From positions 2,356,001-2,420,000 of the forward strand of contig NZ_OY726395.1 of NCBI RefSeq assembly GCF_963378085.1: a stretch of DNA of 64,000 nt, written 5' to 3'. Position 1 is the first letter of the stretch. Each line of letters starts with the position of its first letter. The DNA comes from Mycolicibacterium sp. MU0050. Lineage in GTDB: Bacteria; Actinomycetota; Actinomycetes; Mycobacteriales; Mycobacteriaceae. This document shows, piece after piece, positions 2,247 to 42,864 of this stretch. The notes below the pieces were generated by a model. That model made no database searches, had not been told where the DNA came from, and saw nothing but the letters and a program-made list of their open reading frames with translations. Position numbers and translations under genes: made by a program.

Positions 2247-3074
2247 GTGACTGCTGTAGTCGAGGATCCGTTGATCGCGGGGATGGCGATTCGACACTTG
2301 CTGCCGCTGCATGAGTCCAGCCGCCGGCTCCGGAACCTTTACCCGGAATGCCCGCGCGTGTACGGCGTCGCCGTGATGGGGGATGTGTCCAAGCGGCGGT
2401 GGTGGCCGCTGGCGTCGGCGCTGAGCGGTGAGCGACTCGATCTGATGTTCCACGCGGCCGCCATGGAGATGGACAGCCGCACCACCGCCGCGCAGCAGTT
2501 GGCAGCCACCTTGGCGCACGCCGTGATCGGCCGGGTGGTCGCGCTCGTGGTGTTGGAGGGGCGCGCCTGGGACACCGGTCTGGAGAACCTGTGGGTCCAC
2601 GTCGACTCCGAGGGGGCCATCGACTGGCTCGGGGTGGTGGACCCGACCCTGCGGATATTGCCCGACGACCCCTGTGCGGCCAGTTCGTGCGGCGGCTCGG
2701 TCGAGGGGGTGGTGGAACTGCCCAGCGAGGCGGCGCTGGCCACCTGGATCGCCCACCGGTGCCACCGGACGTTGGCGCCGCTGTTCGCCCGCCTGCATCA
2801 CGTCAGCGGTGGGGCGGTCAGCGTGGCCGCCATGTGGCACACGGTCGGCACCGCGATCGTGGTTGCCGCCACGCAGGTGCCGCACCTGGCCGGCTCCAGC
2901 GAGGTGATCGGAATGCGCCGCGGCCAAGCCGTTCTCGACGCGCTGGTCGGGTTCGGCCTGCCGGTGCGCGGCCGGACCACCCTGCGTGGGGTGCCGGCGG
3001 CGCAGAGCCGGCACTTCTTGATCGAAACCCGCGAGGACGGCCTTGCGAAATTAGGGCAGCCTTGCCTATCCTGA
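2247..3074 (+). CDS. IdeR-regulated FhuF-like protein lacking the Fe-S cysteine motif
   Basis: Protein of 275 residues starting at GTG 2247 behind a strong AAGGAGG ribosome site. The C-terminal half (residues about 170-250) resembles the FhuF ferric-siderophore reductase fold, including the run GGAVSVAAMWHTVGTAIVVA. FhuF proteins end in a CC-x10-C-x2-C cluster motif that holds a [2Fe-2S] centre; here the tail reads GLAKLGQPCLS and has only one cysteine. It may be a non-redox relative, a form with a relocated cluster, or a truncated reductase. The IdeR box supports a low-iron role, perhaps iron release from siderophore. I know of no M. tuberculosis counterpart at this position. A second iron box overlaps its 3' end and appears to drive the following sRNA. 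Confidence 0.65.
   Translation: MTAVVEDPLIAGMAIRHLLPLHESSRRLRNLYPECPRVYGVAVMGDVSKRRWWPLASALSGERLDLMFHAAAMEMDSRTTAAQQLAATLAHAVIGRVVALVVLEGRAWDTGLENLWVHVDSEGAIDWLGVVDPTLRILPDDPCAASSCGGSVEGVVELPSEAALATWIAHRCHRTLAPLFARLHHVSGGAVSVAAMWHTVGTAIVVAATQVPHLAGSSEVIGMRRGQAVLDALVGFGLPVRGRTTLRGVPAAQSRHFLIETREDGLAKLGQPCLS
3051..3069 (+). promoter_or_regulatory. IdeR box and promoter for the MrsI-like sRNA
   Basis: TTAGGGCAGCCTTGCCTAT matches 14 of 19 positions of the IdeR consensus. It sits inside the last codons of the FhuF-like gene and partly overlaps a TATCCT -10 hexamer at 3067-3072, a classic repressor position. The predicted start of transcription is near 3079. Confidence 0.72.
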
Positions 3075-3078
3075 TGGG

Positions 3079-3178
3079 CATGACGAACCACCGGACCGCG
3101 CCGGAGTCCTGAGGGCTGCAGAGACCCCCGGTCCATCGAAGGCGAGCCCCGTGCCATTGGCACGGGGCTCGCCGCATT
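3079..3178 (+). ncRNA. mrsI: Iron-responsive small RNA, MrsI (ncRv11846) candidate
   Basis: A transcription unit of about 100 bases with no credible gene: an IdeR box and TATCCT -10 stand at its 5' end and a near-perfect hairpin terminator closes it. An internal stem can form between GGACCG (3093-3098) and CGGTCC (3129-3134), leaving a large loop with GAGGGCTG. Position between blaI and the Rv1847-type thioesterase is exactly that of M. tuberculosis MrsI, the IdeR-controlled sRNA of the anticipatory iron-sparing response that lowers bfrA and other iron-protein mRNAs. The identification comes from synteny, length and promoter; base-level homology was not checked. A 12-codon ATG frame (3074-3112) overlaps it but is probably incidental. 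Confidence 0.75.
3141..3173 (+). terminator. Hairpin terminator of the MrsI-like sRNA
   Basis: Perfect 15-bp inverted repeat GGCGAGCCCCGTGCC / GGCACGGGGCTCGCC with a 3-base ATT loop, followed by GCATTTC. The U-tract is poor, as is common for mycobacterial terminators. It would end transcription of the sRNA before the thioesterase gene. Confidence 0.88.
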
Positions 3179-3207: not shown

Positions 3208-3618
3208 GTGCAACAAACACCCGCGGGGTTCCCGGACGGATTCGGGGCGCCCTTCGACAACGAACTGGGCCTGGTCTTCACCGACGTCACGCCCGACGGC
3301 ATCACCGCGCAACTCGAGGTCAAGCCGACCCTGCTGCAGCCCATGGGCATCGTGCACGGCGGGGTGTACTGCGCGATCGTGGAGTCCGTCGCGAGCACCT
3401 CGGCGTTCGTCTGGTTGGCCGAACACGGCGGCGGCAACGTCGTCGGCGTCAACAACAACACCGACTTCCTGCGGGCGATCTCGGCGGGCACGGTGTACGC
3501 TGAGTCCGAGCCGCTGCACCGCGGGCGGCGTCAGCAGCTGTGGATCGTGACCATCCGCGACGAGAAGGATCGGGTGGTCGCGCGCGGTCAGGTGCGGCTG
3601 CAGAACCTCGACGCCTGA
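3208..3618 (+). CDS. PaaI-like hotdog-fold acyl-CoA thioesterase (Rv1847 type)
   Basis: Single hotdog-domain protein of 136 residues. The signature stretch is [18 protein letters not shown] at about residues 47-64, with the HGG turn and the acidic residue on the long central helix characteristic of the PaaI/4-hydroxybenzoyl-CoA thioesterase group, which hydrolyse acyl- or aryl-CoA thioesters in the cytosol. The GTG at 3208 is the only reasonable start. It lies just upstream of the urease operon, as in M. tuberculosis (Rv1847), though nothing ties it to urea metabolism; the 67-base gap leaves room for a separate urease promoter. Confidence 0.85.
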
Positions 3619-4311: not shown

Positions 4312-6041
4312 CCGCACTGTCCCGGCAGCGTTATGCCGACCTGTTCGGCCCCACGGTCGGTGACCGCATCCGGCTGGCCGACACCGACCTGCTGATCGAG
4401 ATCACCGAGGACCGCAGCGGCGGCCCCGGGCTGGCCGGCGACGAAGCCGTCTTCGGCGGCGGCAAGGTGCTGCGCGAGTCGATGGGGCAGGGCCGGGCCA
4501 CCCGGGCCGACGGCGCCCCCGACACCGTGATCACCGGCGCGGTGATCCTGGATCACTGGGGAATCATCAAGGCCGACATCGGCATCCGGGCGGGCCGGAT
4601 CGTCGCCATCGGCAAGGCCGGCAACCCCGACATCATGTCCGGGGTCCATCCCGACCTGGTGGTCGGCCCGTCGACCGAGATCATCGCCGGTAACGGCCGC
4701 ATCCTCACCGCGGGGGCCATCGACTGCCACGTGCACCTCATCTGTCCGCAGATCATGGACGAGGCCCTCGGCGGCGGCATCACCACGCTCATCGGCGGCG
4801 GCACCGGACCCGCCGAGGGCAGCAAGGCCACCACGGTCACGCCGGGCGCCTGGCATCTGGCCCGCATGCTGGAGTCGCTGGACTCCTGGCCGTGCAACGT
4901 CGTGCTGCTGGGCAAGGGCAACACCGTCAGTGCCGAGGCCATGTGGGAGCAATTGCGCGGCGGTGCGGCCGGATTCAAGCTGCACGAGGACTGGGGAACC
5001 ACCCCGGCGGCCATCGACGCGTGCCTGTCGGTCTGCGACGCGGCGGGAGTCCAGGCGGCCATCCACACCGACACCCTCAACGAGATGGGCTTCGTCGAGG
5101 ACACGCTGGCGGCCATCAAGGGCCGATCGATCCACGCGTACCACACCGAGGGTGCCGGCGGCGGACATGCCCCGGACATCATCACGGTGGCCGCGGAACC
5201 GTATGTGCTGCCGAGTTCGACCAACCCCACCCGGCCGCACACCGTCAACACCCTCGACGAACACCTCGACATGCTGATGGTGTGCCACCACCTCAAGCCC
5301 AGCGTGGCCGAGGATCTGGCGTTCGCGGAGAGCCGGATCCGGCCCTCGACCATCGCCGCCGAGGATCTGCTGCACGACCTGGGCGCGATCTCGATGATCG
5401 GCAGCGACGCCCAGGCGATGGGCCGCATCGGCGAGGTGGTGCTGCGGACCTGGCAGACCGCGCACGTGATGAAGCGGCGCCGCGGCGCGCTGCCCGGGGA
5501 TCCGTCCGGCGCCGCCGGCAACGACAACCACCGCGCCCGCCGGTACGTCGCCAAGTACACTATCTGTCCGGCCGTCGCCCACGGGCTCGACGAACACATC
5601 GGGTCGGTGGAGGTGGGCAAGCTCGCCGACCTGGTGCTCTGGGAGCCCGCGTTCTTCGGGGTGCGGCCGCACGCGGTGCTCAAGGGCGGCATGATCGCCT
5701 GGGCCGCGATGGGGGACGCCAACGCGTCGATCCCCACGCCGCAACCGGTGCTGCCCCGGCCGATGTTCGGTGCCGCCCCCGCGGCGGCGGCGGCGACCTC
5801 GCTGCATTTCGTTGCGCCGCAGGCGATCGACGCCGGACTGGCCGATCGCATCGACGTCCGGCGTCGGCTGGTCGCCGTCAAGGATGTCCGCCGTGTCGGC
5901 AAGGCCGATCTGCCCAACAACGACGCGATGCCGCGCATCGAGGTGGAACCGGACACCTTCACCGTGCGGATCGACGGCGAGGTCTGGCAGGAGCAGCCGG
6001 CCGCCGAGTTGCCCATGGCGCAGCGGTACTTCCTGTTCTAG
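4308..6041 (+). CDS. ureC: Urease alpha (catalytic) subunit
   Basis: 577-residue amidohydrolase carrying the dinuclear nickel centre. All canonical active-site residues are visible: HVH (His141, His143), the carbamylated Lys224 in GFKLHEDWG, His in AIHTDTLNE, His in [12 protein letters not shown], the catalytic flap VCHHLKP, and Asp367 in GSDAQAMGR. Length is normal for the family. It starts four bases inside ureB, and ureF follows after two bases. The enzyme supplies ammonium as nitrogen source and may raise local pH. Nickel is loaded by the downstream UreFGD chaperones. Confidence 0.98.
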
Positions 6042-32223: not shown

Positions 32224-33960
32224 CTACGGCGTGGCCGTGGCGATCTGCCATTCGGCCGCGGCCTGCTGCTGGGTCCAGAACTCGGCGAAGCGTCCGTCGG
32301 CGGCCAGCAACGCCTCGATGCTGCCGTCCTCGACGATGCGGCCGGCTTCGACGAACAACACCCGGTCGGCGTGTCGGATGCTGGCCAGCCGATGGGCGAC
32401 GATCACCCGGGTGCGGGAACGCCGATCGGCGATCAGCGCGTCCACCACGGCCGCCTCGTTCTCCGTGTCGAGGGCGCTGGTGGCCTCGTCGACGAGCAGC
32501 ACCGGCGCGGGCTTGACCAGCGCGCGGGCGATGCTGACCCGTTGCCGCTCGCCGCCGGACAGCGCGGCGCCGGCCTCCCCGACCACGGTCTGGTCCCCGT
32601 CGGGGAGGCGGGCGGTCAACTCGTCGACCCGGGCCAGGCGCATGGCGTCGGCGACGGCATCGTCGGTGGCCTGCGGGTCGCCGACCAGGATGTTGTCCCG
32701 GACCGTGCCGTCGAACAGGTACGGATGCTGGAAGACCACGCTGACCGCGGCGCGGCGCTCGGCCGGCGTGAGTGTCGCCAGGTCCACACCGTCGAACAGG
32801 ACCCGGCCGCCCTGCGGCTCGTGCAGGCCGGCGATCAGCCCCAGGATGGTGCTCTTACCTGATCCCGAGGGGCCGACGATCGCGGTGGTGGCGTCGGGTT
32901 CCAGCGTGAAGCTGGCGTCGCGGAGCAACGGTTGGTCGCCGTATCCGAAGGTGACGCCGTCGAACTCGATGCGCGGCGCCCGCGCGGACGCCAGCGCGGC
33001 GGATCCCGCGGACAGCGTGGGGGCGTCCAGCACGGCCTGGATCCGACCGAGGGTGGCGCGGGTGGTCTCGATGGCCGGCGCCAGTTCGCTCAGCGCGCTG
33101 AAGGGTTCCAGGTAACGCGCGATGACCACGATCAACGCGATGGCCTCGGGCACGCCGAGTTGGCCGCGCACGGTCAGCAGCGTGGTCATGCCGGCCAACA
33201 GGATCAGCGCGACCTGACTGGCCAGACTGAACAGCAGCTGCCCGGGGATCTGCATGGTGAGCAGGCGCAGCGTGGCGCCGTGCTGGGCCTCCAGCGCCGC
33301 GCCGACCTGGCTGCGGGCCGGCGCCACCCGCCGGGCCGCGCGCAGCGCCTGCTGGGTGCGGGCGAACTCGATGATGCGCTCGGTGAGCGCGGAATTGGAC
33401 TCGTCGGCGACGGCGTCGGCGCGGCGGGACAGCCGGCCGGCCGCCCACATCGCGCCCAGCAGAACGGCCACCCCGGCCAGGGCGGCCAGGCCCAGCGGCG
33501 GCGAAATCGCCACCAGGGCAATGGCGATCGCCGCCGGCAACAGGATGGCGCCGAGCAACGGTGTCAGCAGGTTGACCACCAGGCCCACCAGTTCGGGGCC
33601 GGTCGAGGCGATCGCCTGCCGGGCGGTGGCGGTGTTGTCGGCGTCCAGCCAGTCCAGCCGGACGTTGGGCAGCCGGTCGGCGACATCGTGCTGGGTGTGG
33701 TCGAGCAGCTTGAACCCCAGGTCGAAACCCCTACGCGCGGTGCTGGTGTCGACGATCCAGCAGGCGACAGTCACCGCGGTGAGCCAGCCCAGCCAGGGCC
33801 AGGCCTGCGCCGGCGTGTCGCCGAACAACGCCGCGACCAGCGGCACCAACAGCACGGTGGCCGCCGCGCGCAGCAGCACCGAGGTCACCGTCAGCGCGGC
33901 GTAGACGTTGATCCTGCCGCGTTGGTCGGCTGGGATGAGGGCGAGCAATGTGCGGATCAT
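32224..33960 (-). CDS. irtB: Mycobactin/carboxymycobactin importer, ABC subunit IrtB
   Basis: 578-residue ABC exporter-fold half-transporter that pairs with IrtA to import ferric siderophores through the inner membrane. Residues 1-320 hold six TM helices; the nucleotide-binding domain has Walker [16 protein letters not shown]-loop VVFQHPYLF, signature [16 protein letters not shown] and Walker [13 protein letters not shown]. Length is that of M. tuberculosis IrtB (579). It starts four bases inside the end of irtA, showing one message controlled by the IdeR box upstream of irtA. The next gene downstream (31718-32197) is unrelated. Confidence 0.96.
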
Positions 33961-36620
33961 CGGCGGGCCTCCTCAACCGCGGTGACACCCCGACCGGAGT
34001 CCCACAGCGCGCGGTACCGCCCCTCGGCGGCGTACAACTGGTCATGGGTGCCGATCTCGGCGATGCGGCCGTGGTCGAGCACCACGATCTGGTCGGCCCC
34101 GGTGATGGTGTGCAAGCGGTGCGCGATCACCAGCACCGTGCGGTCCCGGGTCAGTCGGTTGAGTGCCTGCTGGACAAGGAATTCCGATTCGGGGTCGGCG
34201 AAGGCGGTGGCCTCGTCGAGGATCAGCACCGGGGTGTCGGCCAGGATCGCCCGGGCGATTGTCAGGCGTTGGCGTTCGCCGCCGGACAGTCCCGAACCGG
34301 CCTGCAGCACGGTGTCGTAGCCCTGCGGCAGCGCCATGATGCGCTCGTGGATCTGCGCCGCGCGGGCGGCCGCCTCGATCTGCGCCGCGCCGGCGTCCGG
34401 CCGGGCCAGCGCGATGTTGTCGGCCACGGTGCCGGCCACCAGCTGCGTCTCCTGCAGGACGAAACCCACCTGCCGGTACAGGTCGTCGGCCTCGAGGGTG
34501 CGGATATCCCTGCCGCCGATGCGGATGGCGCCCCGGCCCACGTCGTGGAAGCGGGCCAGCAGGGCGGCCAGGGTGGATTTGCCGGAGCCGGACGGGCCGA
34601 CCAGGGCCGTCACCGTGCCGGGGCGCAACTGCAGGCTGATGTCCTCGAGCACCGCGACGCCGGGCCGGTAGCCGAAGGTCACGCGATCGAAGGACACGGT
34701 GCCCCCGGGCGCGTCGGTCCCGGCGGAATCCGCGGTGTGCAGGGTGAGTTCGTTCTCGTCGAGCGCGCTCTGGATGCGCCGGGCGGCGAGCATGCCCCCC
34801 TGGATCCCGCCCAGGCCGTAGGCGATGCCCAACAGGCGAGCCCCGAACGTGGTGCCCAGGAACAGGAACGGCAGCAGGTTCACCGGGTCCATCCTTCCGG
34901 CCACCACCAGCGGTGTGCCGACGGCCATGATGAGCCAGAGGAAGGCCGACGGCCGGGTGACCAGATCCATCAGGGTCTTCTTGCCCACGAACGGCCGCTG
35001 CCAGTCCACCAGGAAGTCGATGTACTCCTCGAGCCGACGGCGGAAGGTGGACGCCGCCGCGCCGCCGAAGACCCGCACCACCGGCTGGCCCTCCAGGTAG
35101 GCGCCGGCCTCGCCGGTCATCCGCTCCGACCACTTCTGCGACTGCCCGATCTTCGGGCCGGACTGAATCGACATCACCGACATCAGCACCAGGCTGAACA
35201 GCACCGGGACCAGCAGCGCCAGGGCCAACCGCCAGTCCACCACGAACAGGTAGATCAGCACCGCCAGCGGGGCGACGACCGCGGCCACCGCGTCGGGGAT
35301 GGCGTGGGTGATCAGGTAGTGCAGTGCCAGGGTGTCGTCCTGCACCAGCTGCTTGATGGAACCGGAGCCACGCTCGGTGAACCAGCCCAACGGCAGCTTG
35401 GACAGCTTGGTCAGCAGCCGCGACCGCAGCGAGCGGGCGAAGTTCGCGTCCACCCGGTGCAGCCACAGAGTCAGCCCCGCGGTCAGCACCGTGCCGGTGC
35501 CCAGCAGCCCGACCGCGGTGAGTCCCAGCGTCCACAGCCGCTCGGCCTCGGCGCCGGTCAGCAGCAGCCGGGCCAGCTCGACCAGCAGCACGAACGGCGC
35601 CAGCTGCACCAGCGTGATCACCGCCTGCAACACGCCGGAGACGATCAGCGGGGTCTTCAGCGGCGAGAGCAGTCGCCCGGCGCCCTGGGCACGCCAGCTG
35701 CCCGGCGACGCCGTCGCCCCGGCGACGGCCGGGGTCGGAGTCGCGGCGACGGCCGGGGTCGGGGTCGCGGGGGCCGGCGCTGGTGCGGCCGCGTCGGTCT
35801 CGGCCGCGGGACCCTGGGCCACCGGGGTCTCGGCGACCGGGGACTTCTTGTCGGCGGGCTTCTCGTCGCCGCGCTTGGAGCCCATCGCGCGGCCCTCGGT
35901 CCAGTACGCCTGCGGGTGCATCTCGGACTTGGGGAAGCCGAACTCGTCGCGCAACCGGGTGCGCAGCACCTTCAGCGAACCGGCCTCCGGGGTCACCCAG
36001 GCGTACCAGTTGGACCAGTCGCGGGCCTCGATGGCCGCGGCCAACGAGCCGGTGTCGCGCCGCAGCACCCAGTGCACGCGCAGTCGGGGGTGTTCGGCGA
36101 TCGGGATCAGCCGGTCGTCGTCGTCGTGATATTCGAGGTAGGCCTCAATGGGAAGGTCGTGGGGGACCGCCTCGATGATGCCGTTGATGGCCGGGATCGA
36201 GGCGGGGTCGCCGATCAGCAGATAACCGGCGGGCTGGTCCTCGGGCGCCTCGGGGACGCTGAAGCCTCGAGACCCCAGCACCACGACCGGGACGGTGTCG
36301 CCCGCGGTGGCGTTGCGGGCCCACGTGGTGGCCGGACCGGCGGGTTCGTGCAGCACGACGTCGATGGCGAACCGGCCGGTCTCCGGGTCGGCCTCCGAGA
36401 GGGTGTAGCCGCGCTGGAACTCGGTGTCGGAGCCCTCGGGGTCGGGGAACCAGAATCGCAACCACGACGTCGGCTCCACGACCGCGTCCTCGAACAGCGT
36501 CGGCGAGACCATCCGTACCCGCAGGAAACGCGGCGCAACCAGGAACGTTTCGACGACGGTCGCCTGGTGGTCGCGGGCTCCGAAGCCCTTCATCATCACG
36601 CCCTGGAAACCGCGTGCCAT
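33957..36620 (-). CDS. irtA: Siderophore importer and reductase, ABC subunit IrtA
   Basis: 887-residue fusion. Residues about 1-265 form a FAD-binding siderophore-interaction domain ([15 protein letters not shown], then [37 protein letters not shown] and ending [14 protein letters not shown]) that reduces Fe3+ in mycobactin. A Pro/Ala-rich cytosolic linker (about 275-320) has two ATPTPAVA repeats. TM helices follow (about 330-610), then a nucleotide-binding domain with [28 protein letters not shown] and [16 protein letters not shown]. Partner IrtB overlaps by four bases. Transcribed when iron is scarce. Confidence 0.97.
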
Positions 36621-36678: not shown

Positions 36679-36697
36679 TAAGGGTAGCCTCACCTGT
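36679..36697 (-). promoter_or_regulatory. IdeR box of irtAB
   Basis: On the plus strand TAAGGGTAGCCTCACCTGT matches the iron box at 14 of 19 positions; the minus-strand reading AGGTGAGGCTACCCTTA is clearest. It lies 59-77 bases upstream of the irtA ATG and contains a TACCCT -10-like hexamer, so IdeR binding would block RNA polymerase. Confidence 0.85.
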
Positions 36698-42170: not shown

Positions 42171-42189
42171 TTAGTGCAGTCTAACCTAA
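42171..42189 (-). promoter_or_regulatory. IdeR box overlapping the bfd promoter
   Basis: TTAGTGCAGTCTAACCTAA matches the iron box at 15 of 19 positions. On the minus strand it contains TAGACT, a -10 hexamer for bfd, so IdeR-Fe2+ should repress bfd. Confidence 0.83.
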
Positions 42190-42203
42190 CTCGTGCGGTA
42201 TTG

Positions 42204-42242
42204 TTAGGGCAACCTGCCCTTAGGTATGCGAGGCTTACCTAC
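42204..42242 (+). promoter_or_regulatory. Tandem IdeR boxes upstream of bfrA
   Basis: Two neighbouring 19-mers: TTAGGGCAACCTGCCCTTA (42204-42222, 13 of 19 matches) and GTATGCGAGGCTTACCTAC (42224-42242, 13 of 19). The likely bfrA -10 is TAGATT at 42299-42304, so the boxes lie well upstream of it. That is an activating position, as known for M. tuberculosis bfrA, which IdeR switches on in high iron. Confidence 0.7.
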
Positions 42243-42384
42243 CCGACGCTGTTTGCGGTGCCGGGGTGTTTTGGCGTGTTTTTCCTCCCGATCTGGGCTA
42301 GATTCGAGGCACGCGGTGGCGACGTACAGCCCACGTGCACTGCGGTTTCTACTCCCTAGACAGCCCCTGGTGCGAGGAGATCCA

Positions 42385-42864
42385 ATGCAAGGCGATCCAG
42401 AAGTGCTGAAGTTGCTCAACGAGCAGCTTTCCAGCGAGTTGACGGCCATCAATCAGTACTTCCTGCACTCGAAGATGCAGGACAATTGGGGATTCACGGA
42501 ACTGGCGGCCCACACCCGGGCCGAGTCCTTCGACGAGATGCGCCACGCCGAGGCGATCACGGACCGGATCCTGCTGCTCGACGGTCTGCCGAACTATCAG
42601 CGGCTGTTCTCGCTGCGGGTCGGCCAGACCCTGCGGGAGCAGTTCGAGGCGGACCTGGCCATCGAGTACGAGGTGCTCGAACGGTTGCGGCCCGGCGTCG
42701 TCATGTGCCGGGAGAAGCAGGACAGCACCAGCGCGTCGCTGTTGGAAGGCATCATCGCCGACGAGGAATCGCACATCGATTACCTCGAGACGCAGCTGGA
42801 GTTGATGGACAAGCTCGGCGAGGAGCTCTACGCCGCGCAGTGCGTCTCCCGGCCCCCGAGCTGA
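42385..42864 (+). CDS. bfrA: Bacterioferritin BfrA
   Basis: 159-residue heme-containing ferritin that stores iron as a 24-mer shell in the cytosol. The four-helix bundle carries the ferroxidase ligands (E18-type Glu in LNEQLSSELTAINQYFLHSK, DEMRHAEAITDR and IIADEESHIDYLE) and the heme-ligand Met52 in DEMRHAE. ATG 42385 follows a GAGGAG ribosome site; the longer upstream frame is regulatory sequence. The leader contains CAGCCC (42361-42366), complementary to a loop in the MrsI-like sRNA. It corresponds to Rv1876. Confidence 0.97.
   Translation: MQGDPEVLKLLNEQLSSELTAINQYFLHSKMQDNWGFTELAAHTRAESFDEMRHAEAITDRILLLDGLPNYQRLFSLRVGQTLREQFEADLAIEYEVLERLRPGVVMCREKQDSTSASLLEGIIADEESHIDYLETQLELMDKLGEELYAAQCVSRPPS

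Follow-up and report, generated by a model that had tools for sequence, protein, structure and literature searches.

The locus at 3051-3178 of the window, the 64,000-nt stretch of Mycolicibacterium sp. MU0050 DNA analyzed here, is very probably an orthologue of mrsI encoding a bfrA-repressing small RNA, with the MrsI of M. tuberculosis compared by its published description. This identity, which the earlier note had proposed, is supported because position, IdeR box, length, terminator, a seven-nucleotide loop with a six-nucleotide pairing element, and a site co-conserved upstream of bfrA all agree. Similarity is not confined to the terminator, so the outcome that the note had named as refuting did not arise; conservation is strongest in the loop and the first hairpin.

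In the cited passages, MrsI (ncRv11846) is described as an RNA of ~100 nt encoded between blaI and rv1847, with an IdeR site, a rho-independent terminator and bfrA as a target (PMC8628891, PMC7029489, PMC11188477, PMC12101431); PMC8628891 places it at 2096766-2096867 of H37Rv. The window locus shares this place with the MrsI of M. tuberculosis and M. smegmatis, along with the IdeR box, the ~100 nt length, the terminator, the 7-nt loop, the 6-nt element and the bfrA site, but differs in having a FhuF-like gene upstream, the last codons of which run through the box. A six-nucleotide seed and a seven-nucleotide loop are given for MrsI in the cited part of PMC12101431, and the window loop agrees with these in lengths, not in letters. 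The parts of the published work cited here name hypF and fprA as further MrsI targets, and the passage in PMC9410917 describes RyhB, PrrF, FsrA and IsrR as being, like MrsI, iron-repressed sRNAs that lower iron-using or iron-storing proteins. Slow growers, e.g., M. angelicum (L009), align with the mrsI of the window.

Anatomy of the mrsI locus

The locus lies between a blaI-type repressor gene (1579-1992, - strand; PF03965) and an Rv1847-type hotdog thioesterase gene (3208-3618, + strand; PF03061), confirming that it occupies the published place of MrsI. The FhuF-like gene, which encodes an iron reductase-like protein of 275 aa with relatives named iron reductase, occupies 2247-3074 (+ strand), and between its stop at 3074 and the thioesterase start at 3208 no further gene was seen, in keeping with the silent gap described previously. 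The IdeR box of mrsI (3051-3069, no strand assigned) also encodes the last codons of the fhuF-like gene, the frame of which does extend through the box as had been claimed. It matches TTAGGTTAGGCTAACCTAA, which we take to be the IdeR consensus and which was used for box scoring, at 14/19 positions on the - strand and 13/19 on the + strand. Scores of 14/19 or better occur at five positions of the window (2210, 2215, 3051, 36679 and 42171), adjoining the fhuF-like gene, mrsI, an irtA-like gene and bfrA; no position reached 14/19 in 60 simulated sequences matched to the window in length (64 kb) and dinucleotide composition. The 14/19 box reported earlier is borne out. The irtA-like siderophore transporter gene (33957-36620, - strand) contains SIP, FAD-binding and ABC domains, and its upstream IdeR box at 36679-36697 scores 14/19.

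The -10 hexamer TATCCT (3067-3072, + strand) overlaps the IdeR box, and TAnnnT is found at the -10 place in 50 of the 52 relatives with an identifiable right half-box. The predicted MrsI RNA (3080-3178, + strand), its start set by the -10 spacing and its end by the terminator, would be ~99 nt long, matching the ~100 bases estimated earlier. The sequence from 3079 to 3178 has a folding energy of -54.5 kcal/mol (z -4.96; 1 of 200 shuffles was equally low), and the RNA downstream of the box is predicted to form two hairpins. The first of these (3093-3134, + strand), which is absent from the earlier description, pairs 3093-3098 with 3129-3134 and 3106-3111 with 3119-3125, showing covariation in helices 1 and 2, and ends in a 7-nt apical loop AGGGCUG (3112-3118, + strand) that holds the pairing element GGGCUG. 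The second is the intrinsic terminator (3141-3173, + strand), a perfect 15-bp stem as first reported, in which 3141-3155 pair throughout with 3159-3173 around the loop ATT. At the mrsI locus, every Rfam match falls below the cut-off of its family; the best of them (F6, E 6e-4; 30 bits, where 46 are required) covers the terminator stem alone, on both strands. Elsewhere in the window, an Rfam match to 5_ureB_sRNA above the cut-off (4470-4761, - strand, antisense within a ureC-type gene) was rejected as a real sRNA and probably reflects coding similarity to ureB.

Conservation and covariation

A scan of GTDB contigs for the thioesterase yielded 494 related stretches, the best 80 of which, together with the window, make up a set of 81 loci. 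The core motif was found within 260 nt upstream of the thioesterase in 54 of the 81 and further upstream in five more (L033, L039, L063, L068 and L077), giving 59 in total; 45 of these were aligned, the other 14 being omitted because they resembled others, were truncated or, in the case of L049, had degenerated. Among the 45 aligned relatives, changes on both sides were seen in 17 of 27 base pairs, and the terminator has such changes in 12 of its 15 pairs; none of 500 shuffles reached the observed covariation. Paired cells amount to 96.8%, as against 89.9% in shuffles and 37-45% when the structure was slid, the aligned structure having an advantage over the slid versions in that it was taken from the window's own fold. 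The inner stem changes from CTG/CAG to CAG/CTG in 3 of the 54 loci and to CCG/CGG in Nocardia with the loop unchanged, and the loop columns are invariant in the alignment, a constancy that is partly a selection artefact among the 54 loci, which were picked by a motif holding the loop. The loop is likewise present in all 20 loci examined outside the genus, which were found by a covariance model itself trained on the loop. From these sequences, a predicted consensus structure with strong covariation and a constant loop is obtained.

The neighboring fhuF-like gene and the origin of the promoter

The fhuF-like gene has an IdeR box of its own at 2210-2228 (16/19, no strand assigned). Its product is unmatched by PF06276 (FhuF) at E up to 10, while an 87% relative, P0003, matches at E 0.063, below the cut-off, and two Nocardia relatives score above it; because the window protein has no above-cut-off match, the gene is called FhuF-like only. 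The gene is found in 124 of 198 Mycobacterium genomes and in 45 of the 81 loci, every one of the latter with an upstream box of 14-16/19. Both box and core of mrsI follow in 41 of the 45, two have the core without the box, and two are without the core. Where gene, box and core occur together (41 loci), the stop precedes the box in 15, overlaps its opening bases (TTAG) in 21, and comes after it in 5; the window is one of these 5, in which the fhuF-like frame runs through the whole box, and so has the rarer form. Of the 11 pairs of gene and sRNA that adjoin each other outside the genus, 3 have the stop within the TTAG and 2 have it immediately ahead of the box. At the remaining 36 of the 81 loci a fhuF-like gene was not detected; 16 of the 36 have the core, and 14 of these 16 have a box of 13-14/19, the other two being cut. 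Judged from these arrangements, the closeness of gene and box is common and looks old. The earlier proposal of a promoter that arose within the final codons of a protein-coding gene is unsupported, since the box also occurs at loci with no detected fhuF-like gene and the stop passes it in 5 of the 41 loci, and a gene end that shifted over a pre-existing box would be as simple an explanation as a promoter arising within the gene. In six genomes without an mrsI match (L097-L102), a 56-58% fhuF-like gene with a 16/19 IdeR box is located elsewhere in the genome; judged by eye, five of the six seem to have a flavodoxin-like frame after it.

Because the fhuF-like gene is preceded by an IdeR box of its own, with no room for a terminator before mrsI, part of the RNA is probably also formed as the 3' end of the fhuF-like mRNA. 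Small RNAs that derive from mRNA 3' ends and have an internal promoter are a known class, which the window locus resembles in that the end of the gene overlaps the promoter of the sRNA, and in that one terminator can act for the two; it differs from this class in that both promoters carry boxes for one repressor, with co-transcription presumed. At two loci, L106 (genome G097) and L046 (a MAG of another species, with 79-82% identical DNA), the hairpin begins 4 nt and 10 nt past the fhuF-like stop, respectively, with no box, while loop, stems and terminator are all retained, placing the RNA in the fhuF-like 3' UTR. The absence of the box from both probably represents a single loss, and G097 retains CAGCCC at -18 of bfrA (L151).

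These two loci, and the position of the element directly after a gene with an IdeR box, would also suit an element that serves only as 3' UTR and terminator to the fhuF-like mRNA, or else as the thioesterase leader, and that does not act in trans. Such a role is improbable, as the element has its own box at the 14 loci without a found fhuF-like gene, its loop is constant while the stems vary, and the bfrA site described below accompanies mrsI; a thioesterase leader is further opposed by the terminator that precedes the thioesterase. A tentative reading, credible but held at somewhat less than even confidence, is that mrsI and the fhuF-like gene form an old two-promoter unit of the family, in which the fhuF-like mRNA would, on iron starvation, run into mrsI and end at its terminator, and the sRNA would arise as a primary transcript as well as from the 3' UTR. 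The internal promoter would have been lost in one lineage, which would make the sRNA from the mRNA only, many slow growers would have lost the gene and kept an orphan sRNA, and the sRNA would not be specific to mycobacteria.

Other loci depart from the common arrangement. L049 and L105 (G122) have the same sequence, in which an insertion of three bases disrupts the box and a clear terminator is missing; their mrsI is in decay. At L107 (G162), and also at L037, the mrsI core is lost and the IdeR box (15/19) is retained, followed by an inserted stretch; the bfrA of G162 retains CAGCCC despite the lost core.

The proposed target site upstream of bfrA

The proposed target gene, bfrA (42385-42864, + strand; PF00210), is preceded by two copies of CAGCCC, the complement of the loop, at -58 (42327-42332, + strand) and at -24 (42361-42366, + strand). 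Further upstream are IdeR-like boxes at 42171, 42204 and 42224 (15, 13 and 13/19; span 42171-42242), beside which a divergent gene on the - strand resembles bfd by eye. Leaders of bfrA were compared between all 20 Mycobacterium genomes that have bfrA and are without mrsI, and 73 genomes with mrsI, made up of the top 30 bfrA matches, a further 40 taken in list order and three chosen genomes (G097, G161 and G174); G122, which has CAGCCC and a degenerate mrsI, was excluded from these counts. Within 70 nt upstream of bfrA, CAGCCC is present in 65 of 73 genomes with mrsI versus 2 of 20 without it (G149 and G162), counts that are inflated by kinship, ten of the 20 leaders without mrsI looking alike. 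The hexamer is absent from 8 of the 73 leaders with mrsI; it occurs at 70-140 nt in 10/73 and 1/20, and at 140-200 nt in 1/73 and 0/20, of the genomes with and without mrsI, respectively. No other of the 4096 hexamers is as frequent in the 70 nt before the bfrA start, TAGGAG trailing it at 49/73. The place of the site varies by group (~-58, -42 and -27), which suggests renewed selection. In these leaders the bfrA site appears largely to come and go with mrsI, and the co-conservation of loop and site is consistent with the known mechanism, in which bacterioferritin is repressed by loop pairing.

Outside the genus, in a count made by eye, the 100 nt ahead of bfrA contain CAGCCC in 5 of 12 mrsI-bearing genomes and in none of 4 that lack mrsI, L248 being left out for its cut flank. 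In nine further outside-genus genomes with an mrsI match, the bfrA match is weak or none is good; these were not counted, and as they lack a good bfrA match, other targets must exist there.

Still less probable than a purely cis-acting element is a related IdeR-controlled sRNA with main targets here unlike those of MrsI. It would accord with the duplex energy of the loop and the bfrA leader, which gave no signal against shuffled leaders (298 of 500 were as low), with the lack of CAGCCC in 180 nt around the likely start of hypF, considered as a second target, and with six Mycobacterium genomes (G049, G087, G091, G146, G168 and G189) that have mrsI and no bfrA orthologue; these observations also count against the mrsI reading preferred here. 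Against a related sRNA with other main targets stand the two CAGCCC copies of the window bfrA and the wide occurrence of the site in genomes with mrsI.

Distribution

A covariance model, with matches accepted at E up to 0.001, detected mrsI in 172 of 198 Mycobacterium genomes. Across the family, 226 of 301 genomes and 22 of 31 genera had matches, Nocardia, Gordonia and Williamsia included, one of the 22 genera depending on a single match at 9.3e-4; the assignment of relatives to Nocardia is based on a 96% protein match, and that to Gordonia on a 100% match. In the order, 19 of 150 genomes matched, one of these being discarded: the G487 match (L220, E 7.6e-4) was rejected as mrsI, as it consists of a terminator-like part alone. 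At all 20 loci examined outside the genus, a box of 13-16/19 precedes the hairpin and the thioesterase follows, with a fhuF-like gene directly upstream in 11 and 1.8 kb away in 1; no fhuF-like gene was present within the fetched stretch at the other 8. The RNA of the window is well supported as a further member of the MrsI kind; the family is wider, and its tie to an iron gene closer, than the name would suggest. A contig titled as a Bifidobacterium breve MAG (L010) carries the mycobacterial blaI-thioesterase locus and is probably mislabelled or contaminated.

In the cited passages of PMC8628891, PMC7029489, PMC11188477, PMC12101431, PMC9410917 and PMC8600241, MrsI is described for mycobacteria only, and PMC8600241, in the parts cited, concerns both MrsI and Nocardia only through an MrsI entry in its reference list. 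A literature search, to which subscription journals were mostly closed, returned no paper joining MrsI with FhuF or MrsI with Gordonia; MrsI and Nocardia occurred together in PMC8600241 and in a neurology abstract book.

Proposed mechanism

We infer transcription, IdeR binding and repression at the locus from its computed anatomy, covariation, distribution and co-conservation. In the presence of iron, IdeR would occupy the box over the -10 hexamer and the promoter would be shut; in its absence, the 99-nt RNA would be made, ending at the hairpin terminator. The GGGCUG of the loop would then pair with the CAGCCC of the bfrA 5' leader, a pairing that would repress bacterioferritin and so spare iron. 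It is scarcely credible that the RNA acts instead via translation of a leaderless mini-gene, a 10-codon frame whose ATG at 3080 coincides with the predicted transcript start, as the peptide MTNHRTAPES (3080-3112) was rejected as unconserved, ATG or GTG lies nearby in 12 of 52 relatives with frames differing in length and sequence, and the box-to-core spacing among relatives is not in multiples of three.

Mycobacteria spare iron by means of the sRNA MrsI, relatives of which are now found in Nocardia, Gordonia, Williamsia and other genera.
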